Source: Salinicola corii
Lineage (GTDB): Bacteria > Pseudomonadota > Gammaproteobacteria > Pseudomonadales > Halomonadaceae
Length of the DNA stretch: 64,000 bases
Assembly (NCBI RefSeq): GCF_008298015.1
Contig: NZ_VTPX01000005.1
Location: 1-64,000, forward strand
Reading direction: 5' to 3'
The notes below the pieces were generated by a model. It saw only the letters and a program-made list of their open reading frames with translations, searched no databases and was not told the DNA's origin. Of the stretch, positions 49,404 to 64,000 are shown in pieces. The position numbers and the translations under genes are program-made. The stretch's first letter is position 1, and every line of letters starts with the position of its first letter.

Positions 49404-50357
49404 TCATGCTTCCGTGACTTCATATTGAGCAGAGAGGACGCGCTCACGAGGGAGATAGCCGACTCTACCACCGTCAGCGCCAACGATATCCAAACCATCG
49501 AGCCGCTCCGCCAGTATCAGCGAAAGCGCCGCGTGGAGGTTGGCTTCCTCAGAGATCGAGCGAGTCACACCGACATTTCGGGGAGGTTCCATCATCTGTC
49601 TGACGTTGATCAGCGCCAGGCGCTTGATCGCCCTGTCCTGACCCAGAAAACTTTCCACGAAGTCATTGGCAGGATTGGCGAGGATGGCTTCCGGCGTGTC
49701 GTACTGCAATAGTCGACCGTCGCGCATGATAGCAATGCGGTCGCCCATCTTGATCGCTTCATCGAGGTCGTGGGTCACGATGACCACCGTTTTACTCACC
49801 TTCCGCAGAATCTGTCGGAATTCATCCTGGAGACGCACCCGGGTGATCGGGTCAATGGCACCGAAGGGCTCGTCCATCAACATGATGTCGGGATCCGCTG
49901 CCAGCGCGCGGGCGAATCCTACGCGCTGACGCTGACCGCCCGACAGCTCATGCGGAAGACGCTTTCGCATGACGTCCGGGTCGAGCCCGACGAGGTCCAG
50001 GAGTTCATCGATCCGGCGTTCGGTTTCCGCCCTTTCCCAGCCCAGCAGACGTGGCACCGTAGCGATATTCCTTTCGATCGACATGTGGGGAAACAACCCC
50101 ACTTGCTGGATGACGTAACCGATCGTTCTGCGTAGCGCCTTCGGGTCGACGTGCGCAATATCGTGACCGTCGACCAGAACCCTGCCACGGGACGGCGTCT
50201 CCAGACGGTTGATCATGCGCATAGTGGTAGTCTTGCCACAACCGGAGGGACCGATCATGGTAACCGTGGAGCCGCTTTCGATCTCCAGATCAAGATTTTC
50301 TACGGCATACTGATCGCTGCCAGGATAGACCTTGGTGATATGTTCGAGCTTGATCAT
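49404..50357 (-). CDS. Quaternary-amine ABC transporter ATPase (OpuCA/OsmV type)
   Basis: A 317-residue ATPase with Walker A GPSGCGKTTT, signature LSGGQRQRVGFARAL, Walker B IMLMDEPFGAID and a C-terminal partial CBS-like regulatory part (about 250-317). It is the OpuC/OsmU type, which imports glycine betaine, choline, carnitine or other trimethylammonium compounds; EgtU-type relatives carry ergothioneine. It is last in the seven-gene minus-strand operon beginning with the MIO-less lyase at 56044. Confidence 0.88.
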   Translation of the reverse strand: MIKLEHITKVYPGSDQYAVENLDLEIESGSTVTMIGPSGCGKTTTMRMINRLETPSRGRVLVDGHDIAHVDPKALRRTIGYVIQQVGLFPHMSIERNIATVPRLLGWERAETERRIDELLDLVGLDPDVMRKRLPHELSGGQRQRVGFARALAADPDIMLMDEPFGAIDPITRVRLQDEFRQILRKVSKTVVIVTHDLDEAIKMGDRIAIMRDGRLLQYDTPEAILANPANDFVESFLGQDRAIKRLALINVRQMMEPPRNVGVTRSISEEANLHAALSLILAERLDGLDIVGADGGRVGYLPRERVLSAQYEVTEA

Positions 50358-50374
50358 CGGATGGTAATCCTTGT

Positions 50375-51010
50375 CTATCGTTTTTGTGTGAAGCGACGTT
50401 CAAGCCAACCGAAAAGTATCTCGGCGACAATCGCCAGCAGCGCGATGGGTAGAGCACCTACCAGCAAGCGAGGCATGTTCATGAGCGCGATGCCGGCGTT
50501 GACGAAGTCGCCGAGCCCGCCGCCACCGATGAACGAGGCCAGTGCCGCACCGCCGATAACCTGGATCGCACTGGTTCTCACACCCGTAATGATCGAGGGC
50601 ATGGCCAGCGGCAATTCGATCTGCCACAGGATCTCTCGCCGCCCCATCCCCATGCCTTTGGCCGCATTGAGTACCGCCGGATCGATTTCACGGATACCGA
50701 GAATTGTGTTGAGCAGCAATGGCGGAATGGCGAGCACGATGAGGGCAACCAGCGAAGGCAGGAGCCCTATGCCGAGAAACGGCATGGTGGCGGCAAGTAT
50801 CGCCAAGCTGGGAATCGAGCGCAGCGAACCAGCGGTGTTGACCGAAACGAATGCGGCTCTCGGCGAGCGCGCGACCATGAATCCCGTTGGGATAGAGATG
50901 AGTGCAGCAAGGCCCAGCGAGATGACACACATCAGCATGTGCCGGTTGAAGGCGACCATGAACGTGGAGCGATTGTCCAGAATCCAGGTAATGGCATCGG
51001 TGACTATCAT
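50375..51010 (-). CDS. Quaternary-amine ABC transporter permease (OpuCB/OpuCD type)
   Basis: A 211-residue permease with about five helices. The conserved RSPRAAFVSVNTAGSLRSIPSLAILA start, GIREIDPAVLNAAKGMGMGRREILWQIELPLAMPSIITGVRTSAIQVIGGAALASFIGGGGLG-type EAA block is typical of BPD transporters for betaines. It overlaps the second permease by four bases and lies 17 bp ahead of the ATPase gene. Confidence 0.88.
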   Translation of the reverse strand: MIVTDAITWILDNRSTFMVAFNRHMLMCVISLGLAALISIPTGFMVARSPRAAFVSVNTAGSLRSIPSLAILAATMPFLGIGLLPSLVALIVLAIPPLLLNTILGIREIDPAVLNAAKGMGMGRREILWQIELPLAMPSIITGVRTSAIQVIGGAALASFIGGGGLGDFVNAGIALMNMPRLLVGALPIALLAIVAEILFGWLERRFTQKR

Positions 51011-51639
51011 CGAGCCTCCCTCCCAGAACGACGGCGTAAGCGGTCTTCGAGAGCGGAGAGCAGATAGTCGGTAGACAACGCCAGCAGCGCAGTCAGCACG
51101 CCACTGGCAATGATCTTCTCGGAGAACCGTTGGTTGATGCCTTCGAAGATGATCTCGCCAATCCCGCCGGCGTTGATGTAGGCCGCTACAGTGGCAATAC
51201 CGATCAGGGTCACCGTGGCAATGCGAATGCCACCGACAATGAAAGGTAGTGCCAATGGCAGCTCCACCTCACAGATACGTCGCCAGGTCCCATAACCCAT
51301 GCCATGAGCAGCCTCGAGCACTTCTCGGGGGATGGACTGAAAGCCAAGGCCGATGTTGCGTACCAGAATCATCAGCGAATACGCCGCCAGTCCGATGATG
51401 GCTGGTGCCTTGCCGATACCGAGCACAGGAATAAATAGCGCGAACAGCGCCAGGCTCGGGATAGCGAACAGGATCCCGGTGATGATCACGGTGACGTTGA
51501 AAGCACGCGGACGCCGTGCGACCCAGATACCCACGGTCAGGGAAATGATGAGGGCAATGGCAATCGAGGAGAACACCAGATAGAGATGTTCGATCAACGC
51601 TTCGAGCAATCGGTCGAGATTGTTGGGAACCCATTTCAT
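51007..51639 (-). CDS. Quaternary-amine ABC transporter permease, second subunit
   Basis: A 210-residue permease starting at 51639 (MKWVPNNLDRLLEALIEHLYLV); the frame extends upstream without support. The EAA region is IPREVLEAAHGMGYGTWRRICEVELPLALPFIVGGIRI and the following helix ATVAAYINAGGIGEIIFEGINQ matches the paired permease. Two different permeases with one ATPase and a separate binding protein is the OpuC/OsmU layout. Confidence 0.86.
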   Translation of the reverse strand: MKWVPNNLDRLLEALIEHLYLVFSSIAIALIISLTVGIWVARRPRAFNVTVIITGILFAIPSLALFALFIPVLGIGKAPAIIGLAAYSLMILVRNIGLGFQSIPREVLEAAHGMGYGTWRRICEVELPLALPFIVGGIRIATVTLIGIATVAAYINAGGIGEIIFEGINQRFSEKIIASGVLTALLALSTDYLLSALEDRLRRRSGREAR

Positions 51640-51682
51640 CGCATAAGCTCTTGTTGTTCGGGAGAATAGTCCAGCCAGCGTC

Positions 51683-52504
51683 TCACCAGCTACCGCCGAG
51701 TTGGCAAGTGGCGATCTCGGCTCGGGCCGATAGCTCACGGATTGCCGCCATATCAGGCAACTCGAATCGACGAATGCCGAGCGCTGCCATACGCCTCCGC
51801 CCCTCGCGATCCTCGTGAGCCATCAGTAACGACTGTCTCAACGCATCGACGACCTCATCCGGCTGCGACCGCGATGCCACCAATGGTGGAAAAGGCGCCG
51901 GACGGGTGATATCGAGAATGGCGAGCGAAGCCAGGATGTCGGGATCGTGACGCCGCAGGAGCTCATAACCGAAGGCATCGACGGCACCGATATCGACGAC
52001 GCCACGGTGAATGGCATCGATCATGCCCCGAGGGTTGAGTAGCGGGCCATGCGCCGCAGGCCCCGGCATCCGCCCACAGGTCAGGGCCAGATACTCGCGA
52101 GGGGCATGGTAGCCGGACTGGGAATCCGTCACCGTCCAGCCCCATCGTAAAGCGGTCAGATCGGCAGACGAGATATTCCCGCCAGCCCGCGTCACCAGAT
52201 AACTGGCATACTGCGCCCGACCCTCGCTCCACTCGGCGTTGGGGACGGCCGACACGAGCGCATGCGGTTGTTCCTCTTCCGGCAATTGGGAATAGGGGTA
52301 ACCACACATGAACGCCATGCCGAGATCCGTGCGCTGCCACAACGCCGACAGCGATGCCGGGGCCGCGTGACCGATAATCTCCAGCGCCACCCCACTGACA
52401 GCGGCAAGCCAATGGAACAGTTCATCCCAGCACTGGCGGCTCAGCGGACTGACGTTGTACATGCGGGAACAGGCGACGACCGCCCCGCGACTGACGGTAG
52501 CCAT
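51683..52504 (-). CDS. PhnD-like periplasmic-binding-fold protein lacking a signal peptide
   Basis: A 273-residue protein with PhnD/transferrin-type features: SRMYNVSPLSRQCWDELFHWLAA, LWQRTDLGMAFMCGYPYSQL, the Ala-Ser-Tyr strand AQYASYLVTRAG and GVVDIGAVDAFGYELLRRHDP. The N-terminus MATVSRGAVVACS has no signal peptide, so it probably stays in the cytoplasm. It starts where the preceding gene stops (TGATG). The operon also has a true exported binding protein, so this one may sense or process a ligand instead of transporting it. Confidence 0.72.
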   Translation of the reverse strand: MATVSRGAVVACSRMYNVSPLSRQCWDELFHWLAAVSGVALEIIGHAAPASLSALWQRTDLGMAFMCGYPYSQLPEEEQPHALVSAVPNAEWSEGRAQYASYLVTRAGGNISSADLTALRWGWTVTDSQSGYHAPREYLALTCGRMPGPAAHGPLLNPRGMIDAIHRGVVDIGAVDAFGYELLRRHDPDILASLAILDITRPAPFPPLVASRSQPDEVVDALRQSLLMAHEDREGRRRMAALGIRRFELPDMAAIRELSARAEIATCQLGGSW

Positions 52505-53508
52505 CAGGCGAAGCGAATCTTCTGACCGAGGTTCATCGACTTCGCCTTGTCGAGCATCGCCACGCCCAGCGCGATATCGCTCGTACTGAGTCCACGGTGC
52601 CAGAACAAGAGGGTCTCGTCGTCGCTCTCGCGCCCCGGCCTTAGACCGGCGACGATCTGGCCGATTTCGGCATGCAAGGACTTCTCGGTCACCTTGCCAC
52701 TGTCGACATGGTAACGCAGGGCTCCGTAGGGTCGCCCCGGGGCACACTGTCCCCAGTCGTCGACGACCACCTTGTCCATGACATCGGTAATGTCGTTCTC
52801 CAACGCGCTCATAGTGCCGTAGGGGATGACCAGCGCGCCCTTCTTGATCCACTCGGTCTTGAACAGCGGCGTAGGCTCCGGCAAGCGGCTGGCCTCCAGC
52901 ATGATGTCGGCCCCGTCGAGACAGTCCTGCCAGTTATCGGTCACAACGATCTTCTTGCCGAGATCGGCTTCCAGACGTTCGGCAAACATCGTGCGACTCT
53001 CTTCCCGGCGCGAGTGAACGCGAATCTCATCGAAATCGAACAGATGGTCGAGCAGGCGCACGTTCCAGTAGGAAGTGCCTCTAGCTCCAACATGACCGAG
53101 TATCCGGCTGTCGCTGCGAGCGAGGTATTTGGCTCCCAGTGCGGTCAGGGCACCAGTGCGCATATCGGTGATGGCAGTCGCATCCACGATGGCACGTGGC
53201 ATCCCGGTCTCCGGATCGAACAGGTTCAGCACCGCCATCTCTGACGGAAGCCCCTTCTTGTAGTTGTCCACGAAGTCGCCGACGATTTTGACCCCGGCCA
53301 CTCCCAACGGCTTGATGTAGCCCCGCAACACATTGAAATGGCCTTTGTCGGAACTCTCGGGCACTAGATGGACCCGAGGTTCGATCACCGTTTCACGACG
53401 GCCTTGCGCAGCCAGGGAAGCCTCGACTGCCGAGAGAATCTCATCGTTGGTTAGATCGAGCGCGGCGGTGTCGAGGGCATTGAGGTAGTCGATCCAGATT
53501 TCCTGCAT
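52504..53508 (-). CDS. Ornithine cyclodeaminase/mu-crystallin family protein
   Basis: A 334-residue NAD-binding enzyme-like protein. The family pattern is visible: Arg/His in EPRVHLVPE, Lys in VKIVGDFVDNYKKGLPS, LFDPETGMPRAIVDATAITDMRTGALTALGAKYLAR, and the nucleotide fold ILGHVGARGTSYWNVRLLDHL. Members include ornithine cyclodeaminase, imine reductases and opine-type enzymes, and close relatives are sometimes labelled tyramine oxidase subunit B. The start 53508 is an ATG after GGGAA. A role in processing the imported amino-acid derivative is likely; the reaction is unknown. Confidence 0.72.
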   Translation of the reverse strand: MQEIWIDYLNALDTAALDLTNDEILSAVEASLAAQGRRETVIEPRVHLVPESSDKGHFNVLRGYIKPLGVAGVKIVGDFVDNYKKGLPSEMAVLNLFDPETGMPRAIVDATAITDMRTGALTALGAKYLARSDSRILGHVGARGTSYWNVRLLDHLFDFDEIRVHSRREESRTMFAERLEADLGKKIVVTDNWQDCLDGADIMLEASRLPEPTPLFKTEWIKKGALVIPYGTMSALENDITDVMDKVVVDDWGQCAPGRPYGALRYHVDSGKVTEKSLHAEIGQIVAGLRPGRESDDETLLFWHRGLSTSDIALGVAMLDKAKSMNLGQKIRFA

Positions 53509-53576
53509 GTTGTTGTTCCCGAGGTTCTTAAAGATAGTGGCTTGAAAATGGATGCTCTGTCGGAAGCCGAAACCGG

Positions 53577-54464
53577 TCAATCGACGAGACCTTCCTCATG
53601 CAGGAAATCAGCGACGATATCGGCCGGTTCCTCATGATCCCGTTCGAATTTCGCGTTGAGTCGACGCATGATGGAGTTATCGAGATGGGAACCGACCGAC
53701 TCCAGAATTTCCTGGATGTCCGGATGCGCATCGAGCACCTCCTGACGCACTACCGGCGCCACGTAATAAGGAGGGAACAGTCCTTTGTCGTCATTCAGTA
53801 CCTTGAGATCGCCGCTGTCGAGTTGCCAGTCGGTGGCATAACCGTTGGAGACGTCGATATCTCCCTGGTTCAGAGCGTCATAACGTAAGCCAAGATTGGT
53901 GAATTGCCGGAATTCCTTGAACGTAGCGCCATAGACCCGCTCGAGCCCGGGAAGGCCATCGGCGCGCTCGGGGAACTCCGGCCCCCCACCGAACACCATG
54001 TCGCCAGCGACGCTGGCCAGATCCGATAGAGACTCGAGGCCGTCTTTCTTCGCTGTTTCATCACGCATGATGATCACATAGCCATTATTGATCCCGGTCG
54101 GCGCAAGCCAGCGCAGGTTCAATTGGTCCGCGTAGTAGTCGCTAACCTCGTCGTAAACCACCTGCTCGTCGGTCGAGATGGTGCCATGGACCACCGATGT
54201 CAGCGCGGTTCCGGTATACTCCGGGTAGAGATCGATGCCCCCCGAGGTGATGGCTTGGTGGGCAATCAGCGTACCGCCAAGATTGATCTTCCTTTCGACC
54301 TCATAGCCGGCATTCTCGAGTAGCTCGGCATAGATTTCGGCGAGAATGTACTGTTCCGAGAAGTTCTTGCTGCCGACCACGATCGGGTCTGCCATGGCCT
54401 GTGTCGTGGTCAGCGACGATGTCAAAGCCAATGCTGAAGCCATCGGAATAATGAATGTTTTCAT
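53577..54464 (-). CDS. Quaternary-amine-type substrate-binding protein (OpuCC/OsmX, OpuAC family)
   Basis: A 295-residue exported binding protein. Signal peptide: MKTFIIPMASALALTSSLTT, cleavage near AMADP. OpuAC-type motifs: IVVGSKNFSEQYILAEIYAELLENAGY, GGIDLYPEYTGTAL (tyrosines that often line a cation-binding cage), and NGYATDWQLDSGDLKVLNDDKGLFPPYYVAPVV. It serves the two permeases and ATPase downstream. The ligand is probably a trimethylammonium compound; residues are too divergent to name it. Confidence 0.85.
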   Translation of the reverse strand: MKTFIIPMASALALTSSLTTTQAMADPIVVGSKNFSEQYILAEIYAELLENAGYEVERKINLGGTLIAHQAITSGGIDLYPEYTGTALTSVVHGTISTDEQVVYDEVSDYYADQLNLRWLAPTGINNGYVIIMRDETAKKDGLESLSDLASVAGDMVFGGGPEFPERADGLPGLERVYGATFKEFRQFTNLGLRYDALNQGDIDVSNGYATDWQLDSGDLKVLNDDKGLFPPYYVAPVVRQEVLDAHPDIQEILESVGSHLDNSIMRRLNAKFERDHEEPADIVADFLHEEGLVD

Positions 54465-54508
54465 TGTTTTCCTCCTGGAGCGTTATTGTTGCTGTCGTGT
54501 GAGGTGAG

Positions 54509-56044
54509 TTATGGATCCAGATCAGCCGTCGGCGAAATTTGTTTTGTTATCAAACGATTGATCGTTTCGAAATCACAGTTGTGAGGTCTGTCTTCATGCA
54601 AGGCAGCGACATGTTCGCGCACGAAAGCCAAGGCTTTCCGGGTACCATGACCGAGGGCATTGGACGCACTACGCAAATCCACCGCCTGGGCGGAAACCAC
54701 CAACTCGATCGACACCAGCCAGCGCATGCGCTCGACGACTTCCGCGACGTTCGCCAACGTGCTGGGAGCAAGTGAGGCATGATCCTCGACTCCATCAGCG
54801 ACGGGGATGGCAGACATTGGCATAGGAGCGGCGAAGTGACGAATCTCCGCTTCGAGCATCGAGACGGTCTTCTGCACAGTGGCAAAACCGGTACGACTCT
54901 GACCCAACGGAGTGAGAAAACGCGGCAATCCGGAATCGTGCGGCGACATCAGCTTCATGATGCGATGAGCGGTGGCATTGGCACTTTGCGCTATGGCCAG
55001 AGCAAGCCGCGCCCAACTCAATGTAAAGGCTGTGGTATCGAAGTTGCCGTTCGGTAGCACCAGTGCCTCATCCGCCAGGATGACCGGGTTGTCACCGCCG
55101 CTTGCCAGCTCGATACGCGTCGCCTCGCGCGCTTCGTCGAGCGCGTGCATGACAGCGCCCAGAATCTGCGGCAGGCAACGATAACTGAGCGGGTCCTGAA
55201 GCTTCCTCGCAGTCCCTTCTGCCATCAGCTCACCACCGCGAAGATGAGCGAGTAATCGAGAGGCTGCCTGCCGCTGACCAAAGGCCGGGCGAACCGCCAT
55301 GGCCCGTTCATCGAAGGCATTGGTGTTGGCGCGGAAACCTTCGCAGTTCAGGGCGGCGGCAAGACAGGACCAATCCAGCAAACGCCCAATATCCGCCAGC
55401 CGCAAGCAGGCTTGGCCAACCGAGAAGCTGTTGGCAGCCACCAGGGCATGCCCATCCCGGGGGCCCAACTCCAGGGGTACGAGACCAGCGCGGGCGAGTG
55501 CCTCCCCGGCATCGAGCACCTGGCCCTGCCATTCCACTCGGCCATCCCCCATCAGCGCCCGGGTCATTTGCGCAAGCTGTGCCAGGTCCGCCGCCCCCAG
55601 CGAGCCGTGCCGAGGGATGACTGGATGAAAGCCCGCATTGATGGCGTCGATCAGTCGGGTCAGCACGATCGGAGAAACGCCACTGCCACCTGCCGCCAAC
55701 CCGCAGGCCCTTGCCACCATCATCGCTCTGACGGCTTCGCGTGGCACACTGTCACCAACAGCTACGGAACGTGCCAGGGGAACCCGGTTCTGGAATGCAA
55801 CCAAATCGTCGGCGTCCAGTGTCGTATCGACCCCAGCGCCCAAGCCGGTCGTCAATCCGTAGGTGGGTAACTGTTCCGCAACGCTGCGTTCGACGACCCA
55901 ACGCGCCGCCGCGAGTCTAGACTCGATCTCGGGAGAGACGGTCAACCAGGCTTTTCCGCAGGCGATAGCCGCGACATCGTCAACATCGAGTGGCAACGTA
56001 TCAGGGAGGAGCCGATACGAAGGAGCTGATGCAAAGGAACTCAT
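54509..56044 (-). CDS. HAL/PAL-family lyase lacking the MIO tripeptide (second paralogue)
   Basis: A 511-residue protein of the aromatic amino acid lyase family. The start at 56044 follows GGAGG. Tyr of the TYGLTTGLGAG loop (HutH Tyr53 position) is kept. The MIO site GSxGASGDL reads GSLGAADL (residues 147-154), one residue short and without the Ser needed for cofactor formation. The His of the usual SHAAGVG block is lost (LARSVAVGD), and QDPYSLR reads QDPLSYR. The late Glu-Asp-His (GVEDHAS) is kept. It heads the operon with the quaternary-amine transporter, so MIO-independent elimination of a trimethylamine group is a reasonable hypothesis. Confidence 0.85.
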   Translation of the reverse strand: MSSFASAPSYRLLPDTLPLDVDDVAAIACGKAWLTVSPEIESRLAAARWVVERSVAEQLPTYGLTTGLGAGVDTTLDADDLVAFQNRVPLARSVAVGDSVPREAVRAMMVARACGLAAGGSGVSPIVLTRLIDAINAGFHPVIPRHGSLGAADLAQLAQMTRALMGDGRVEWQGQVLDAGEALARAGLVPLELGPRDGHALVAANSFSVGQACLRLADIGRLLDWSCLAAALNCEGFRANTNAFDERAMAVRPAFGQRQAASRLLAHLRGGELMAEGTARKLQDPLSYRCLPQILGAVMHALDEAREATRIELASGGDNPVILADEALVLPNGNFDTTAFTLSWARLALAIAQSANATAHRIMKLMSPHDSGLPRFLTPLGQSRTGFATVQKTVSMLEAEIRHFAAPMPMSAIPVADGVEDHASLAPSTLANVAEVVERMRWLVSIELVVSAQAVDLRSASNALGHGTRKALAFVREHVAALHEDRPHNCDFETINRLITKQISPTADLDP

Positions 56045-56137
56045 GTAATGCTACCTCCATGTCGGCCACTCACTGCTGAGAGGTGCCGGCAATTTGATTA
56101 TTGTTGTCTTTGCGGTGGAGCTTCAACGCGACCACTA

Positions 56138-56147
56138 TGTATATACA
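56138..56147. promoter_or_regulatory. TGTATATACA operator upstream of the second lyase operon (site 1)
   Basis: A perfect palindrome 94 bp upstream of the lyase start, identical in core to the two sites in the hutU-hutF intergenic region and resembling HutC-type operators (TGTAnnTACA). It implies shared control with the hut genes. Confidence 0.65.
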
Positions 56148-56234
56148 ATCACTCTTTCAGTGGAGCTGCAACAGCAATCAAGCTGTCCTCGTAACGAGGT
56201 CATGGAGGTCATTGCATGAGTTCAATATTTGAGA

Positions 56235-56254
56235 TTATTTGTATATACAAATAA
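56235..56254. promoter_or_regulatory. TGTATATACA operator upstream of the second lyase operon (site 2)
   Basis: The core is extended to a perfect 20-bp palindrome, TTATTTGTAT and its inverse, the longest of the four sites. It lies 191 bp from the lyase start and 166 bp beyond the hutG stop. The gap 56045-56419 holds no gene apart from these sites. Confidence 0.65.
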
Positions 56255-56419
56255 AAACCATAACCCCTCACCGAGATTTCATTACATCGTCCAAGTATCG
56301 AGCCGTAGGGCTTACCAATGCCCAGTGCCGGCGCCGTCGTCAGGCGCGCGGGCGTTTTCATGGCCGACCCCAGCCATGAGAATGAACCGTCACGGGTTCC
56401 AGCCATCGTCAAACGAATG

Positions 56420-57244
56420 CTAGCACTGTGGCGGCCGCCACTGCGTCAAGGCGAGCAGCAGCCGCTCGAGCACCGGCTTAACACATCCGGCACGTGCCGC
56501 CCGATAAGGAAACAAAGATGCGGCGTCATACGCCTGATCGCTCTCGGGCTCGTCCATGTAGGTAGCCTGGGAAAGCTCGAGTTGTACCGCGTGCACGTAA
56601 TCGGCGGGATTGCCATAACAGCGCGTGATATAGCCACCCTTGAAGCGACCGTTGATCACCCAAGTGTAGTCATTCTGCCCCTTACAGATCGTCTGCAACT
56701 GCTCTGCCAGCGTCGGATCACAGCTGGCACCATCGAACGTGCCAAGGTTGATATCCGGTAGTTGTCCCTCGAACAGGCGTGGTACCCGCGAACGGATCGA
56801 GTGCGCATCGAACAGCACAACGTAGCCAAAGCGCTGCCTCAGTCGTTCGAGCTCGGCTCTCAGCGCTTGGTGATAAGGCCGCCAAACGTGTTCCAGCGCC
56901 CAGGCACGGGCCTCGGGAGAGGGTTCCCCTTGCCCCTGGTAGAGTGGCTGGCCGTCGAAGTCCGTCTCGGGGAACAAACCCGTGGTGGCACCAGCGTAGA
57001 GCGGGGTGTCATCCGCCGGTCGATTGAGATCGATCACGTAACGGGAGTATTCGGCCTGCAAGCGGCTGCAGCCCAGCGTTTCGACAAAATCGTAAAGCCT
57101 AGGGATATGCCAGTCCGTATCCAGCAGCGAACGTGCTCGCGCCTCCAGATTTCCTTCCATTCCTGGCGCCAGACGAACACCGGCATGTGGCATGGAGATC
57201 AGTAGCGGCGTGTCACCCCGAACAAGCCGATAACTCTGTGTCAT
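56420..57244 (-). CDS. hutG: N-formylglutamate deformylase
   Basis: A 274-residue N-formylglutamate amidohydrolase giving formate and glutamate, the last step of the HutF branch of histidine degradation. Features: the start [25 protein letters not shown], a metal/catalytic block [32 protein letters not shown], and [35 protein letters not shown] 57244 overlaps the hutI stop by four bases, so the two are coupled. It is the last gene of hutU-BCCT-lyase-hutI-hutG. Confidence 0.9.
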
Positions 57245-58446
57245 GACTGCACCTCCCGTCCTGCCTTGAACCGGGTCACCGGCAACTGTCCTCCCATCCA
57301 ATAAGCCAACTCGGCCGGCCCGGTCACGTCCCACGCCACTGCGTCGGCTACCTTGCCAACCTCGAGCGAACCGTGGGTCTCGTCTATACCCAGCGCCCTG
57401 GCAGCATTGAGTGTCACTCCCGCCAAGGCCTCCTCCGGCGTCAGGCGGAACAGCGTGCAAGCGAGATTCATCATCAGCCGCAGCGACAGCACCGGCGAGG
57501 TGCCGGGATTGAGGTCACTGGCCAGCGCTATGGCGACGCCGTGCTCGCGAAACGCCTCGATCGGCGGCACCCGGGTCTCCCGCAGCGTCAGAAACGCGCC
57601 GGGCAGCAGCACGGCGGTGGTGCCGCTGGCTGCCATGGCCCGTGCATCGTCGTCGTTGGCGTACTCGACGTGATCGGCCGACAGCGCGCCGAACTCGGCC
57701 GCCAGCTGGCAGCCCCCCAGGCGCGACAGTTGCTCGGCGTGCAGCTTGACCGGCAGGCCGAGCCGGCGTGCCGTCTCGAATACCCGCCGCATCTGTGCCG
57801 GAGAAAACGCAATGCCCTCGCAGAAGCCGTCGACGGCATCGATCAGCCCCTCTCCCGCCAGCGTCGGCAGGATCGTCTCGCACACCAGCTCGATGTAGTC
57901 ATCGCTGCGCTCGGCATACTCCGGCGGCAGGGCGTGGGCGGCGAGGCAAGTCGTCTTTACCGTCACGGGCAGGCGTTTGCCCAGTTCGCGGGCGACCTGC
58001 AGCATGCGCCGTTCGCTGTCGAGATCGAGACCGTAGCCGGACTTGATCTCGAGCGTGGTAACGCCTTCGGCCAGCAGCAGCCGCGCTCGCGCTTCGGCAC
58101 TCGCGTAGAGCGTCTCGAAGTCGGTCTCCCGGGTCGCTCTGACACTGCTGACGATCCCGCCGCCCTGACGTGCGATCGTCTCGTAGTCGACACCCTCCAG
58201 ACGCTGCTCGAACTCACCGCTGCGGTCGCCCCCGAACACGAGATGGGTGTGGCAGTCGATCAGCCCCGGCGTCAGCCAGCGACCACCGAGGTCGTGGATG
58301 GCATCGAACGCCTGCGCGGCCAGATCGTCGGCTTTGCCGATCCAGTCGATCCGCCCATCGACAATGACGAGAGCCGCGTCAGTGATGAGGGAGTAGCGGC
58401 CGTCAGCCATGGTGATGGCGTGACAGTGGTGCCAGAGCTGGGTCAT
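57241..58446 (-). CDS. hutI: Imidazolonepropionase
   Basis: A 401-residue amidohydrolase converting imidazolone-5-propionate to N-formimino-glutamate. Metal residues: His pair in [37 protein letters not shown]-type block (near 70-105), [12 protein letters not shown] (His) and [12 protein letters not shown] (Asp). These are exact HutI hallmarks. It starts 30 bp after the lyase stop. It confirms that the operon's product enters the urocanate route. Confidence 0.95.
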
Positions 58447-58476
58447 GGGCGATTGCCTCCATTCGGTCGGGGATGA

Positions 58477-60036
58477 TTACGTCAGGGTGAGGGCGCGCGT
58501 TTCCGGCGGACCACTCAGGGTCGTCGCCACGGCTTCTGGGATCGCGGCGGAGCGCATCGCCGAGAAGGCTCGCTCGATATCCCGGGAGAGCGGATGCTCC
58601 TCCTCGTAGATGTCGACCAGGGCGCGCAGCCATCGCCATGCCGCGCTGGTACCGGTCGCGAAGCGCTCGCTCGGCAGCAGATCGAAGGCCTGCGCCGCGC
58701 ACAGCCACTCGATGGCGATGATGCGAAAGGCGTTGTCCAGCGCGGCATCCAGCTTCAGCGCGGCGCTGTCGCCGAGGCTGAGGTGATCCTCCTGCAGTGC
58801 GGAAGTCAGGTAGTTGTCGATCACCGCCGGCTGCGCCAGGCGCTTGTTGTCGGCGGCGAGCGAAGCGGCCGTGTACTGCGCGATCATCAGCCCGGACTTC
58901 ATCCCGCTCTCGGCGGAGAGAAACGGCGGCAGGCCACTGTGAAGACCACTCACTTCGGGCGTCACGAGACGGTAGATGCGCCGCTCCGATATCGCGCTCC
59001 ATTCCGCCACCGCCATCGCCAACTGGTCGCAGGCCAGGGCGATCGACTCGCCATGGGGATTGGCTTGCGAAACGACCCGGTAGCCTTCGGCGTTCTTCAG
59101 CAGCAAAGGATTGTCGGTGGCGCTGTTCAACTCGCGGTCGATCTGTTGTGCCGCGTGTGCCAGCTGGTCGCGACAGGCGCCGTGGACCTGAGGGATGGCA
59201 CGCAGACTCAGGGCGTCCTGCAGATGCCCGCCGCGTCGAGCAGCGAGCCACGGACTATCGTGCAGAAGCTCGCGCAGGGTGGCGCCGCAGATCTGCATAC
59301 CCAGTTGGGGCTTGAGTGCGAGGACATCGGCATCGAACGCCGCCAGTTGACCACCCAGCGCATCGAAGCTCATCGCCGCGCCGACGTCCGCCCAAGCGCT
59401 CAAGCGATTGGCGCCATCCAGTGCCAGGCAGGCCAACCCCGTCATGGCCGGGGTGCCATTGACCAGACTCAAGCCGTCCTTGGCGCCCAAGGTCACCGGC
59501 GCCTTGCCGATCCGCGCCAGCGCTGCTTCGGCGCTCATGACGCCGCCCTCGTGGCGAACCTCGCCGATGCCGATCATCGCCAGGCCGATATGCGCCATGT
59601 GGGTGAGATACCCCACCGAGCCCTGTCCCGGCACCACCGGCGTCACCCCATGGTTGAGAAAGTCGAGGAGCCGCTCGACGATCTGGGGACTGATTCCCGA
59701 ATGACCGTGGCTGTAATTGACCACGGCGGTCGCCATGATCGCGCGGACCTGATCGTCGCGCAGGGGGGCACCGACGCAACAGGCGTGACTCATCAGGGTG
59801 TGGTAGGAGAGACGCTGGAGCTGGTCCGGCGCCAGGCGCACGTGGCAGAGCGCACCGAGGCCGGTATTGATGCCGTAATAACGCGTCTCCTCCCGAGCGA
59901 ACGCCTCCACGGCCTGGCGAGCCTCTCGGACCTTGGTCCAGCGCCCTTCATGGAGCGCCAACTGCGCGCCATGGCGGGCCACGTCGACGATGGCGCGCCA
60001 GGAAACTGTCTCGTTGCCAAGCGTGACGGTCTTCAT
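58477..60036 (-). CDS. HAL/PAL-family lyase lacking the MIO tripeptide, in hutH position
   Basis: A 519-residue HutH-like protein. The start at 60036 (MKTVTLGNETVSW) is four bases from the transporter stop; the frame extends upstream into it. Kept from HutH: Tyr in YYGINTGLGAL, SHACCVG with His84, Asn in SLVNGTPAM, Arg in SLRAIPQVHGA, and QEDHLSLG with Glu. The MIO region, normally GSVGASGDLAPLAHM, reads GSVGYLTHMAHI (residues 139-150): ASG is cleanly missing. The Tyr in QDPYSLR is Leu (QDALSLR). It cannot form MIO and is unlikely to be an ordinary histidine ammonia-lyase. Elimination of trimethylamine from histidine betaine fits better. Confidence 0.88.
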   Translation of the reverse strand: MKTVTLGNETVSWRAIVDVARHGAQLALHEGRWTKVREARQAVEAFAREETRYYGINTGLGALCHVRLAPDQLQRLSYHTLMSHACCVGAPLRDDQVRAIMATAVVNYSHGHSGISPQIVERLLDFLNHGVTPVVPGQGSVGYLTHMAHIGLAMIGIGEVRHEGGVMSAEAALARIGKAPVTLGAKDGLSLVNGTPAMTGLACLALDGANRLSAWADVGAAMSFDALGGQLAAFDADVLALKPQLGMQICGATLRELLHDSPWLAARRGGHLQDALSLRAIPQVHGACRDQLAHAAQQIDRELNSATDNPLLLKNAEGYRVVSQANPHGESIALACDQLAMAVAEWSAISERRIYRLVTPEVSGLHSGLPPFLSAESGMKSGLMIAQYTAASLAADNKRLAQPAVIDNYLTSALQEDHLSLGDSAALKLDAALDNAFRIIAIEWLCAAQAFDLLPSERFATGTSAAWRWLRALVDIYEEEHPLSRDIERAFSAMRSAAIPEAVATTLSGPPETRALTLT

Positions 60037-60040
60037 CGCC

Positions 60041-61642
60041 TCAACCCTCGATCGCCGTTGTGGAGCCGCTGGCCGCGTCCTCGGGCAGCGCCGTGGCGAT
60101 GGCGCTTTCACGTCCGTAGATCAGCGCCTTGACGCTCGCGGCGAGCACGAGAACGAACAGGAAGACCACGAAGAAGCCACCCGCCGCCGCGAGATACTTG
60201 ATGCCATCGACGCCCTGCTCACCACCCCCGAAGGCAACCATGACGTAGGCGATGACGCTGATCGACACGCCCCACAGAATCTTCTGGAAGGTGGGCGATT
60301 CATCCTCGGCGGTCATGCCACGAGTACAGATCGTGGCGATGGTCGCCGACATGGAATCCGCTGCCGTGGCGAACGACAGAATCAGCGCCAGAATCGTGGC
60401 CGGCACCAGCAACCAGGCTAGCGGCAGTTGATGCAGAAAGCCCCACAAGCCAGCCACGGCGCCATCCTGATCGATGATCGAGGCCAGATCGAGCGTGCCG
60501 TCCAATTGCCACTTGATCGCACTGCCGCCCCAGACCGTGAACCAGACGATGCCGAAGATCGCCGGCAGAACCCAGTTGATCATCAGAAATTCGCGCAGCG
60601 TCCTCCCGTAGGAGATGCGCGCCAGGAACAGGCCCATCAGCGGCGCGTAGGCGATCCAGATCGACCAGTCGTACATCGTCCACCAGGTCACCAGCGCTTC
60701 ACCGCCCAGCTCCTTGGTGTCGAAAGACCAGGTGAAGAAGTTGTTCAGCCAATATCCGATGCTGGTGGTGGACAGGTTCAGCATGTAGACCACCGGCCCG
60801 ATAATCAGCAACAGAGCCAGCATGCCGTAGTAGAGATAAGCGTTCAGCGAAGACAGGTAGCGGATGCCGCGCTTGAGCCCCGACACCGAGGAGGCAATGA
60901 AAATCACCGTGATGATGGCCACCAGCACCAGCCAGGTCGTCGGGCCAACGCTGATGCCGTATTCCTCCTGCACCCCTGAGCCAATCAGAGCGACGCCGGC
61001 ACCCAACGATGAAGCCAGACCGAGCGCAATCGCCAGTACCGAGACGATGTCGATGATGGCGGTGACCGTCGGTCGCCGATGATGATCACCGATGATCGGA
61101 GAGATCGCCGCGGATATCGAGAATCGCTGACGGCGGTTGTAGTGCATGTAGGCGATCATCATGCCGACCACGGCGTACATGGCGTAGGGAATGAAGCTCC
61201 AGTTGTGGAAGCTGCGTGCCAGCGCGAAAACCGCCGACTCGCCGCTACCCGGCGCGAAGCCCTGATTGTCGATTTCACCGTAGACATTACCCATGTAGAT
61301 AATGGGTTCGTTGACGGCGTAGGTCACGACCCCCGTCGCAATACCGCCGGTCAGCGCCATCGCGAAGGTCGACATCAGCGAGAATTTCGGCTTCGCATCC
61401 GGCCCGCCGAGACGAATATTGCCCACCTTCGAGCAGAAGACGTATCCGACCACGGCCAGAGCCGACACGGCGACCAGTTGATAGAGCCAGGCAAAGTCGG
61501 AAAGCGTCAGGTAGAAAATATCCTGTGTGACGTCGATCAGCAGTTCGTTATCGACCAGACCGATGATCGCAGCGACGGCAACGATCAAGAACGTCGGGAT
61601 GAACACGCTGAGCTTGATGCTTTTCGGTGCGGGTTTTGACAT
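60041..61642 (-). CDS. BCCT-family transporter (betaine/carnitine/choline type)
   Basis: A 533-residue membrane protein with twelve helices. The start at 61642 (MSKPAPKSIKLSVFIP) is preferred to the longer frame. The BCCT signature is WTMYDWSIWIAYAPLMGLFLARISYGRTLREF near residue 300. A Trp/Tyr-rich region, HNWSFIPYAMYAVVG, lies in helix 4. It resembles the CaiT branch more than BetP and lacks long terminal domains. BCCT proteins carry quaternary ammonium compounds, so finding one between hutU and the lyase suggests the substrate is a betaine such as histidine betaine. Confidence 0.9.
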   Translation of the reverse strand: MSKPAPKSIKLSVFIPTFLIVAVAAIIGLVDNELLIDVTQDIFYLTLSDFAWLYQLVAVSALAVVGYVFCSKVGNIRLGGPDAKPKFSLMSTFAMALTGGIATGVVTYAVNEPIIYMGNVYGEIDNQGFAPGSGESAVFALARSFHNWSFIPYAMYAVVGMMIAYMHYNRRQRFSISAAISPIIGDHHRRPTVTAIIDIVSVLAIALGLASSLGAGVALIGSGVQEEYGISVGPTTWLVLVAIITVIFIASSVSGLKRGIRYLSSLNAYLYYGMLALLLIIGPVVYMLNLSTTSIGYWLNNFFTWSFDTKELGGEALVTWWTMYDWSIWIAYAPLMGLFLARISYGRTLREFLMINWVLPAIFGIVWFTVWGGSAIKWQLDGTLDLASIIDQDGAVAGLWGFLHQLPLAWLLVPATILALILSFATAADSMSATIATICTRGMTAEDESPTFQKILWGVSISVIAYVMVAFGGGEQGVDGIKYLAAAGGFFVVFLFVLVLAASVKALIYGRESAIATALPEDAASGSTTAIEG

Positions 61643-61759
61643 TTTTATACCCTGAGATGAAGGTTTAGAACGGCGCGTAAGCCCACGACGAGTGGGTGAT
61701 ATCAGCAGTCGGGGTCTCGCGGAAACCGGCACCCCAATGCGGCTGCCGGCCCGAATGCG

Positions 61760-63427
61760 TTACTTGACCATTGGCAGGTCGAGACCCTGCTCCCTGGCGC
61801 AATCGATGGCGATGTCATAACCCGCGTCGGCATGACGCATGACGCCAGTGGCCGGGTCGTTGTGCAGAACGCGAGCGATACGCCGAGCCGCGTCGTCGCT
61901 GCCGTCACAGACGATCACCATGCCAGCGTGCTGAGAGAAGCCCATGCCGACGCCGCCACCATGATGGAGCGAGACCCAGGTGGCACCGCTGGCAGTGTTG
62001 AGCAGCGCGTTGAGCAGCGGCCAGTCGGAAACTGCGTCAGAGCCATCCTGCATGCTCTCGGTTTCTCGGTTGGGGCTGGCCACCGAACCGGAGTCGAGAT
62101 GGTCGCGACCGATGACCACTGGCGCGGAGAGCTCGCCGCTGCGCACCATTTCATTGAACGCCAGCCCCAGCTTCTCGCGCAGGCCCAGACCGACCCAGCA
62201 GATACGTGCCGGCAGCCCTTGGAAGCTGATGCGCTCTCGTGCCATGTCGAGCCAGCGATGCAGGTGCGCGTCATCGGGGATCAGTTCCTTCACCTTGGCA
62301 TCGGTCTTGTAGATGTCCTGCGGATCGCCGGACAGCGCGGCCCAGCGGAACGGGCCAATGCCCCGGCAGAACAGCGGCCGGATATAGGCGGGAACGAAGC
62401 CTGGGAAGTCGAAGGCGTTGGCAACGCCCTCCTCCTGCGCCATCTGGCGGATGTTGTTGCCGTAGTCGAAGGTGGGGATGCCCTGCTCGGCAAACGCCAG
62501 CATAGCGCGCACATGTTCGGCCATCGACGCCTTGGCCGCCTTGACCACCGCCTGCGGCTCGGTCTTGCCACGCGCGCGATAGTCCTCCCAGCGCCAACCG
62601 GCCGGCAGATAACCGTTGAGCGGATCGTGGGCACTGGTCTGGTCGGTGACCATGTCCGGGCGTGCGCCACGGCGTACCAGTTCAGGCAGAATTTCAGCCG
62701 CATTACCATGCAGGGCGATGGAAACCGCCTTGCCTTCGACGGTGTAGCGCTCTATCCGGGCCAGGGCATCGTCCAGATCTTCCGCCTGTTCGTCGACATA
62801 GCGTGTACGCAGGCGAAAGTCGATACGTGATTGCTGGCACTCGATGTTGAGCGAACAGGCGCCCGCCAACGTTGCCGCCAGCGGCTGCGCGCCGCCCATC
62901 CCGCCGAGCCCCGCCGTCAGGATCCAGCGCCCGGCGAGCTTGCCGTCGTAATGCTGGCGCCCCGCCTCGACGAACGTCTCGTAGGTCCCTTGAACGATGC
63001 CCTGGGAGCCGATGTAGATCCACGAGCCCGCGGTCATCTGGCCGTACATCATCAACCCCTTGGCATCGAGCTCGTTGAAATGCTCCCAGTCGGCCCAGTG
63101 TGGAACCAGGTTGGAGTTGGCAATCAGAACCCTCGGCGCATCGGCATGCGTCCTGAACACGCCGACCGGCTTACCCGACTGCACCAACAGCGTTTCATCC
63201 GTCTCGAGCGTTTTCAGCGTGGCAACGATCGCGTCGAAACATTCCCAATCGCGTGCCGCGCGGCCGATGCCGCCATAGACGACCAGTTCTTTCGGGTTCT
63301 CGGCCACGTCCGGGTCGAGGTTGTTCATCAGCATGCGCATCGGCGCCTCGGTCAACCAGCTCTTGGCAGTCAACGTCGAACCGTGAGGGGCGCGAATGTC
63401 GATATCACGAAAACGAGAATGAGTCAT
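61760..63427 (-). CDS. hutU: Urocanate hydratase
   Basis: A 555-residue urocanase, strongly Pseudomonas-like. It has the NAD-binding [18 protein letters not shown]-type motif ([14 protein letters not shown]), [31 protein letters not shown], the active Cys in [13 protein letters not shown], and [15 protein letters not shown] near the C-terminus. It hydrates urocanate to imidazolonepropionate. Being ordinary urocanase and not a thiourocanate hydratase, it implies that the lyase product is plain urocanate. It is first of the operon; operators lie 68 and 223 bp upstream. Confidence 0.96.
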
Positions 63428-63494
63428 GAGTACTCCGGGCAGTCGATAACGGGACGAGAACGTTGGCCGAGACGGCGAGCTCTACCATTGAATA

Positions 63495-63504
63495 TGTATA
63501 TACA
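63495..63504. promoter_or_regulatory. TGTATATACA operator near hutU
   Basis: A palindromic site (extended ATGTATATACAT) 68 bp upstream of the hutU ATG in the divergent hutU-hutF region. Same core as the sites at 56138, 56240 and 63650. Confidence 0.65.
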
Positions 63505-63649
63505 TTACCCTGTCAAATGTCGGCAGCCAAGTGTGTCATCAAAAATCGAGTAATTCCTGATTTCTCCAATTATGGTGCATAAATGGGCATTAACCGCACC
63601 AAAACAATGCAGATCGAGACGCTTGAATCCTGCCACCGGACACGCTATA

Positions 63650-63659
63650 TGTATATACA
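63650..63659. promoter_or_regulatory. TGTATATACA operator near hutF
   Basis: A palindromic site 26 bp upstream of the hutF ATG, well placed to block transcription of hutF. The probable regulator is a HutC-type GntR protein, not present in the window. Confidence 0.65.
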
Positions 63660-63684
63660 ATAAATTGCACCAAAGAGGCCCGGG

Positions 63685-64000
63685 ATGCCAAAGACCTACT
63701 TCGCTACTGCCGCACTGCTGCCCGACGGATGGCGACACGACGTACGGATCCGTGTCGATGACAGAGGGTTCATCGACAACGTGACCGCCGATGCCACTGC
63801 AGACGAGGCGGAACGCCTCGGCGGACCCGTGCTGCCCGGCATGCCCAACCTCCACTCTCACGCCTTTCAGCGCGCCATGGCCGGTGTCGCCGAGATCGCC
63901 TCTGACAAGGCGGACAGTTTCTGGAGCTGGCGTAACCACATGTATGGCCTGGTGGATCGCCTCACACCTGAAGACGTGGGCGTTATCGCACGCGCACTCT
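63685..64000 (+). CDS. hutF: Formimidoylglutamate deiminase, N-terminal part (cut by window edge)
   Basis: The first 105 residues of a HutF-type amidohydrolase, starting at ATG 63685 after AAAGAGG. The metal His pair appears in LPGMPNLHSHAFQRAMAGVAE, and the following SFWSWRNHMYGLVDRLTPED is a HutF hallmark. HutF converts N-formiminoglutamate to N-formylglutamate, the substrate of the hutG product at 56420. The rest lies beyond the window. Confidence 0.9.
   Translation, partial: MPKTYFATAALLPDGWRHDVRIRVDDRGFIDNVTADATADEAERLGGPVLPGMPNLHSHAFQRAMAGVAEIASDKADSFWSWRNHMYGLVDRLTPEDVGVIARAL

Follow-up and report, generated by a model that had tools for sequence, protein, structure and literature searches.

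Two histidine ammonia-lyase-like proteins that lack the MIO tripeptide in a Salinicola hut region, and a possible role in methylated-histidine salvage

The first 64,000 bases of contig C26 of the Salinicola corii genome (4.66 Mb in 30 contigs, rated 100% complete), here called the window, contain a histidine utilization (hut) region with two unusual lyases, referred to as lyase A and lyase B. On the minus strand, hutU, a BCCT transporter gene, lyase A, hutI and hutG form unit A, in which lyase A begins 4 bases past the BCCT stop and hutG overlaps the stop of hutI. A 375-base gap containing two HutC-type operator-like sites separates these genes from unit B, which consists of lyase B, an OpuC-type substrate-binding protein, an ornithine cyclodeaminase/mu-crystallin-type protein (OCD), a PhnD-like protein, two permeases and an ATPase (Table 1). 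Divergent from hutU lies hutF, the end of which falls at contig base 65046, and hutC sits just beyond the window, past hutF. In a preliminary description of this DNA, hutU, hutI, hutG and hutF had been called ordinary; the first three exceed the cut-offs of their models, and hutF is real but has only its first 316 bases in the window. The BCCT and OpuC/OsmU-type carriers named there were likewise recovered, whereas the OCD and the PhnD-like protein of unit B had been overlooked.

Both lyases matched PF00221 (518 bits for A and 433 bits for B; cut-off 27.3) and so belong to the aromatic amino acid lyase superfamily, but they scored below the hutH equivalog cut-off of 539.15, at 494.3 and 356.4 bits, respectively. 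In alignment with Pseudomonas putida histidine ammonia-lyase (HAL), which reads GSVGASGDL, the loop of lyase A reads GSVGY---L, with the serine of the 4-methylideneimidazole-5-one (MIO) group and its neighbours gone, and the loop of lyase B reads GSLGA-ADL. The Ala-Ser-Gly tripeptide that forms MIO is therefore missing from both proteins, as had been described, but the losses differ, being three residues in A and one in B. MIO and Tyr280 are central to histidase chemistry, and HAL Tyr280 is Leu in both lyases. Other HAL residues with active-site roles, Tyr53, Arg283 and Glu414, are retained. The comparison with ergothionase residues covered Lys386 and Glu414 (HAL numbering); in the alignment, Lys at position 386 was found only in lyase B, its relatives and the ergothionase of Treponema denticola, the structure of which (6s7j) was also the top solved match of lyase B (268 bits).

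Table 1. Features of the hut region, with positions in the window
Feature	Position	Strand	Remarks
ABC ATPase, betaine/proline/choline type	49404..50357	-	TIGR01186 327.6 bits (cut-off 326.6)
ABC permease, OpuC/ProW type	50375..51010	-	
ABC permease, OpuC/ProW type	51007..51639	-	profile matches and comparison with relatives; ATG start assumed
PhnD-like protein	51683..52504	-	PF12974 99 bits; ATG start assumed
Ornithine cyclodeaminase/mu-crystallin-type protein (OCD)	52504..53508	-	PF02423 175 bits; ATG start assumed
OpuC/ProX-type substrate-binding protein (P0007), complete aromatic cage	53577..54464	-	PF04069 224 bits
Lyase B, ergothionase-clade	54509..56044	-	MIO loop minus one residue; Lys at HAL 386
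HutC-type operator-like TGTATATACA	56138..56147		upstream of lyase B
HutC-type operator-like TGTATATACA	56240..56249		upstream of lyase B
hutG, N-formylglutamate deformylase	56420..57244	-	TIGR02017 352 bits (cut-off 279); ATG start assumed
hutI, imidazolonepropionase	57241..58446	-	TIGR01224 476 bits (cut-off 298)
Lyase A, HutH1-type	58477..60036	-	MIO loop minus three residues; HAL Tyr280 to Leu; ATG start assumed
BCCT transporter	60041..61642	-	PF02028 400 bits; ATG start at 61642 assumed, open reading frame opens at 61732
hutU, urocanate hydratase, ordinary type	61760..63427	-	TIGR01228 1013 bits (cut-off 375)
HutC-type operator-like TGTATATACA	63495..63504		divergent gap, hutU side
HutC-type operator-like TGTATATACA	63650..63659		divergent gap, hutF side
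hutF start, formimidoylglutamate deiminase	63685..64000	+	TIGR02022 642.8 bits, whole gene

The altered loops were kept across whole clades, and lyase A showed a dN/dS of 0.085-0.125 in five Salinicola comparisons, indicating purifying selection. These findings rule out sequencing error or a decaying gene as the source of the missing residues. A class-wide search with the loop pattern matched 4 of 369 genomes, of which two (G000 and G026) were genuine and the other two read YFTH. Leu or Ile replaced HAL Tyr280 in every MIO-free row of the alignment except one, locus L246 of genome G473, a HAL relative that reads GSVGYLGPEG and keeps Tyr280. The rule that Tyr280 is always lost together with MIO is thus false.

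The main tree was built from 56 rows, with the loop and two trait columns excluded, and followed an earlier tree of 44 rows. Lyase A fell in a 21-row clade (clade A; support 100/99). Lyase B grouped with the Treponema ergothionase (100/100), with lyase A outside, and the ordinary HutH rows formed a separate clade (98/98); the kinship to ergothionase stated in the preliminary description is supported for lyase B, which in addition is accompanied by a binding protein with a quaternary-amine cage. Approximately unbiased tests did not reject a single origin for the three-residue deletion (p 0.233) or for all MIO-free rows (p 0.421), and did not reject the grouping of A with ordinary HutH (p 0.144); therefore we make no claim for one or several losses of MIO.

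Other MIO-free groups were a Klebsiella/Sodalis/Agrobacterium plasmid group, a Priestia plasmid protein and L246. On Klebsiella pneumoniae plasmid pKPN-065 (L107, 6920-8452), a MIO-free lyase reading GSVGYLIATAH is annotated as aromatic amino acid ammonia-lyase and lies in a hut island with hutU, hutF, hutC, hutD and an OpuAC transporter. Klebsiella accounted for 190 and 164 records in two tblastn tallies of HAL relatives, pKPN-065 being the one inspected. In Sodalis (L108, 6872-11272) and Agrobacterium (L110, 7971-12436), genes for a CoA-transferase, a 3-hydroxyacyl-CoA dehydrogenase and an enoyl-CoA hydratase follow a lyase of the same group, an arrangement suited to an acrylate processed by way of CoA, without hutU alongside.

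The absence of an ordinary hutH, noted earlier for the window, extends to the genome: a whole-genome PF00221 search returned three loci, namely lyase A, lyase B and a third on contig C22. This third protein keeps Ala-Ser-Gly. Because it scored 378 bits against the hutH model (cut-off 539) and matched the tyrosine ammonia-lyase model best, it was taken as an aromatic-type paralogue, and a hidden ordinary HutH was rejected. A MIO-bearing HutH, identified by its loop, accompanied the clade A lyase in 27 of 32 whole genomes checked: Salinicola peritrichatus (G012), G026, 18 genomes of family f230 and seven others outside families f1 and f230, the last drawn from a non-exhaustive motif check of 29 loci (L069-L097) returned by the lyase B search. 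Since these genomes carry both enzymes, lyase A is not simply the histidase. The five without a MIO-bearing HutH were all Salinicola (G000, G002, G006, G010 and G011). Among 18 Salinicola genomes, hutU was present in seven, six with lyase A and the seventh (G013) with an ordinary HutH instead; the 11 without hutU had neither, and at most an aromatic-type paralogue. Because the genomes are related, no formal probability was attached to this co-occurrence. In G013, an aromatic-type HAL paralogue (G013:C1:2122987-2124368) is interrupted by TGA.

The gene order of unit A recurs in its relatives (gene names in unannotated comparison stretches are BLAST matches to named genes). The order hutU-BCCT-lyase A-hutI was found in seven of eight halomonad loci (G000, G002, G006, G010, G011, Kushneria aurantia and G026), the eighth, in S. 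peritrichatus, having no BCCT gene between hutU and lyase A. hutG follows hutI in G000, G002, G011, K. aurantia and G026; in G006, G010 and S. peritrichatus, no hutG was recognised at this position. The linkage of lyase, BCCT and hutU, for which a search had been suggested, is thus conserved in halomonads, but several clade A transporters elsewhere do not look specific for quaternary amines. In G026, the ordinary HutH has amino-acid ABC genes on its own strand at a distance of a few kb, which suggests that importers are split between HutH and the lyase A unit in that genome.

Six genomes of family f21, of the same order as the window genome, carry hutU, a permease gene, hutX, hutW, hutV and a MIO-free lyase gene, then hutI and hutG. 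In three of them (L217-L219), an ordinary HutH immediately follows the lyase; in the remaining three (L220-L222), it is encoded on the opposite strand within 10 kb. We call these operons Pseudomonas-type on the basis of gene order and the family code. Two of the MIO-free HutH paralogues encoded after hutXWV in such operons share 55-56% identity with lyase A. One Pseudomonas-type copy scored 538.5 with the hutH model (cut-off 539.15) and 550 with a second histidine ammonia-lyase model (cut-off 524). We take the S. meliloti arrangement to be hutXWV-hutH2. By its clade and its operon position, lyase A is a HutH1-type paralogue, and the system is not peculiar to the window, since such paralogues occur in many hut operons. 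The link to the named HutH1 of Pseudomonas fluorescens SBW25 was drawn from gene order rather than from the SBW25 sequence. A review describes a five-gene insert between hutU and hutH in the Pseudomonas hut operon, and HutH1 is reported to be dispensable for growth on histidine.

Clade A was also present in 18 of 121 sampled genomes of family f230, the family of G654. The three-residue deletion is present at all 18 loci, and each fetched stretch includes a hut gene. At 17 of the loci, the lyase has an importer as neighbour (one gene apart in L178; none in L183). An N-methyltryptophan-oxidase-type gene (solA) follows lyase A in three (L174, L177 and L181) and on two plasmids (L062 and L185), the L185 copy scoring 426 bits (cut-off 257). 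In a seventh genome, G428 (L223), outside the other groups, the surroundings of the clade A lyase contained no hut gene.

Unit B likewise has counterparts elsewhere. On Rhizobium plasmids and in G654, it occurs in the same order (read by annotation in L061, L063 and L186, and by sequence match in L098), preceded by genes for a CoA-transferase, a short-chain dehydrogenase/reductase (SDR) and a MaoC protein, and by hutC. No hutU is present in the rhizobial operon, so the lyase B product need not feed the Hut pathway in the way that had been supposed. The PhnD-like protein holds the same place in Rhizobium at 46% identity, in an alignment that includes the overlapping upstream frame. In Streptomyces chartreusis, an OCD (68% identical), a lyase (44%) and an OpuC-type transporter are found together. 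Counted at E 1e-90 or better in the f230 sample, eight lyase B loci in seven genomes and eight OCD loci in eight genomes were found, with the OCD next door in six of the lyase B loci (in G654 with the binding protein between); lyase B loci G462:C56 and G800 and OCD loci G733 and G808 stand alone. In four genomes of genus g376 (L102-L105), a lyase B relative (41-44% identical) and an OCD lie beside a sugar-type ABC/DUF4432/isomerase region, and no hut gene was recognised at these loci.

Some features of the accessory genes were also recorded. The dinucleotide loop of alanine dehydrogenase 1omo contains GCGTQ; the OCD and the relatives that were read carry GARGT or GARAT at this place, and NAD binding may be altered. 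By eye, the PhnD-like protein has no evident signal peptide in either Salinicola or Rhizobium (L061, 12573-13391), which is odd for a periplasmic protein. A choline-type substrate-binding gene (L004, 7965-8831; contig 67965-68831) is transcribed away from hutD, and a HutC-type site (L004, 7873; contig 67873) separates the two; proteins similar to its product adjoin hutC/hutD in four other Salinicola.

The two units share operator-like sites. The 64 kb contain four occurrences of the pattern TGTANNTACA, all of them reading TGTATATACA, where 0.07 would be expected. In S. peritrichatus, the pair before lyase B is repeated, 102 bases apart as in the window, and further sites lie at both hutU/hutF gaps and before the ordinary HutH. 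At the four rhizobial lyase B loci, the sole site immediately precedes the CoA-transferase gene; the sole site in Erwinia lies ahead of an operon of a PAAT-type binding protein and lyase A. The HutC gene of the window contig scored 285.7 bits with the HutC model (cut-off 220), which the HutC gene of the rhizobial operon passes as well. With predicted sites and a HutC gene at hand, both units look like members of a HutC regulon in Salinicola.

The BCCT protein of the window had BetP as its top solved match, though it reached 333 bits against the glycine-betaine BCCT model NF047988 and did not meet its cut-off of 650. The unit B binding protein, P0007, has all four Tyr of the quaternary-amine cage and also shares Lys, Asn, Thr, Glu and Arg with related betaine binders; these positions, and those of the ergothioneine binder EgtU, were assigned by manual comparison of motifs, Archaeoglobus ProX included. 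HutU is of the ordinary type, as had been stated, and scored below the cut-offs of the thiourocanate (682 against 930) and S-methylthiourocanate (704 against 880) hydratase models.

Collectively, these data lead us to propose, with a probability of about 0.5, that the region is a HutC-controlled, two-unit salvage island for N-methylated histidines, in which lyase A would convert hercynine to urocanate and lyase B would act on a related betaine. In this model, the BCCT carrier of unit A would import histidine betaine (hercynine), and lyase A would remove the whole trimethylamine group by acid/base 1,2-elimination to yield urocanate, which HutU, HutI, HutF and HutG would take to glutamate. Hercynine is favoured for lyase A because it would yield urocanate for the ordinary HutU. 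Ordinary HutH needs MIO to expel ammonia; MIO would be dispensable for lyase A because trimethylammonium is a good leaving group. The OpuC-type importer of unit B, with its quaternary-amine cage, would bring in another imidazole betaine, which could be ergothioneine, a ring-modified relative or again hercynine, and lyase B would split it in the same manner; the product may join the Hut pathway in Salinicola and, in Rhizobium, would pass as a CoA ester through the hydratase and dehydrogenase. T. denticola ergothionase is reported to be a trimethylamine lyase with the HAL fold and without MIO (PMC13405746), and histidine betaine is reported from a cyanobacterium (PMC3826126). The two lyases probably break down methylated histidines; the earlier interpretation, to the same general effect, is partly supported: for lyase A of the halomonads it is plausible, for lyase B it is half right, and as a whole it is unproven.

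Several observations weigh against this proposal. In the five Salinicola genomes that carry hutU and lack a MIO-bearing HutH, lyase A is the sole HutH-type enzyme, as if it had replaced the histidase. In K. aurantia, amino-acid ABC genes occupy the stretch between HutH and hutU, share the hutU strand and immediately precede hutU-BCCT-lyase A, which contradicts a clean split of importers there and confines that reading to G026. The exact TGTATATACA is absent from 15 of the 18 f230 clade A loci, and the other three have it by hutI/hutF and not before the lyase unit. A search of the genome for flavin-containing monooxygenase (FMO)-type proteins gave weak matches, the best 55 bits over part of a 609-residue frame, so that no trimethylamine monooxygenase was evident; other trimethylamine routes were not searched.

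Further counter-evidence concerns transport. P0007 has Phe and Tyr at the positions of EgtU Gly244 and Phe293, residues named in the EgtU report (PMC9732360), so the ergothioneine determinants are absent and, on these hand-matched positions, EgtU-type import of ergothioneine was rejected. The cage of the unit B binding protein retains three of four Tyr in Rhizobium and two of four in Streptomyces, and the Aureimonas-type and plasmid-clade proteins have one of four; an OpuAC protein with one of the four Tyr is found beside clade A lyases. The importers adjoining clade A in f230 were of PAAT type in 10 of 18 loci, of HutXWV type in five (binding protein read in four) and of OpuAC type in two. 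Two PAAT proteins tested, from Erwinia and Sinorhizobium, matched octopine-/nopaline-binding proteins best among solved structures, with 214 and 193 bits for octopine-binding protein versus 102 and 118 for histidine-binding protein, and HutXWV is reported to participate in histidine uptake. The evidence on transport outside halomonads is therefore mixed, several clade A neighbours not appearing specific for quaternary amines, and it is mainly for this reason that our confidence was held at the level given above.

Of the alternatives, the one that survives best concerns lyase B, which could be a strict ergothionase, converting ergothioneine to thiourocanate and trimethylamine, with thiourocanate handled outside the Hut pathway. 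Its position in the ergothionase clade would fit, as would the rhizobial loci, which have hutC and a HutC-type site with a CoA-ester set in place of hutU. We nevertheless regard this as rather doubtful, given an identity of about 32% to the Treponema enzyme, a binding protein without the EgtU-specific Gly and Phe, and a window HutU below the thiourocanate hydratase cut-offs. For lyase A, a substrate still bearing N-H is unlikely, though worth weighing: N-alpha-methyl- or dimethylhistidine, or an opine such as histopine, would give urocanate plus an amine or amino acid. The octopine-like PAAT proteins and the solA-type genes beside clade A argue for such substrates, but the halomonad BCCT carriers suit quaternary amines better, and both PAAT proteins seem, by eye, to keep the Asp that opine binders lack and that binds the alpha-ammonium group in amino-acid binding proteins.

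Lyase A might instead be a MIO-free histidine ammonia-lyase that took the place of HutH in Salinicola. The five Salinicola genomes with hutU, lyase A and no MIO-bearing HutH are what this would predict, and clade A importers without a full cage agree with it; the retention of a MIO-bearing HutH in 27 of 32 genomes, the reported dispensability of HutH1 for growth on histidine, and the central place of MIO and Tyr280 in histidase catalysis make it a less probable account still. Finally, both proteins might be non-catalytic binders of histidine-like ligands, acting for example as regulators or ligand buffers in the hut system; this agrees with the lost electrophile but is very improbable, since Tyr53, Arg283 and Glu414 are retained, lyase A is under strong purifying selection, and ergothionase is reported to be active as a lyase without MIO.

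The proposal of methylated-histidine salvage can be extended beyond Salinicola, although we hold this wider form more tentatively, at slightly worse than even odds. The branch filed as histidine ammonia-lyase in pseudomonad, rhizobial and halomonad hut operons would then consist of MIO-free betaine lyases that convert histidine betaine or another N-methylated histidine to urocanate; the HutC regulon would serve in methylated-histidine salvage, and a rhizobial ergothionase-type unit would add a CoA-ester route outside the textbook Hut pathway. By title and opening of the abstract, none of the open-access papers listed concerned a hercynine lyase or a MIO-free HutH1. If correct, the extension would assign a function to HutH1, which belongs to a model operon and is reported as dispensable for growth on histidine, would explain a likely common misannotation of clade A as HutH, and would reveal a route by which bacteria release trimethylamine from histidine betaine. 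It would also show that a built-in cofactor can be dropped when the leaving group changes.

The kind of system, MIO-free lyases of the HAL fold, is already known, and the observation reaches further than had been described. The T. denticola ergothionase (PDB 6s7j/6s7q) resembles lyase B in its MIO-free HAL fold, its clade, its one-residue deletion and Gln-Lys-Thr at HAL 385-387, whereas overall identity is low; lyase A differs from it in falling outside the clade, in its three-residue deletion and in having no Lys at HAL 386, and the window pairs its lyases with an ordinary HutU and not a thiourocanate hydratase. Ordinary HutH shares with both lyases the profile match, several active-site residues and the operon context, but not their missing Ala-Ser-Gly, lost Tyr280 or scores below the hutH cut-off. 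P0007 belongs with EgtUV, OpuC and ProX by family and by its quaternary-amine cage, and departs from EgtU in the replacement of Gly244 by Phe and of Phe293 by Tyr. Compared with Pseudomonas-type HutH1, the Salinicola lyase A is paired with a BCCT carrier and mostly occurs without an ordinary HutH.

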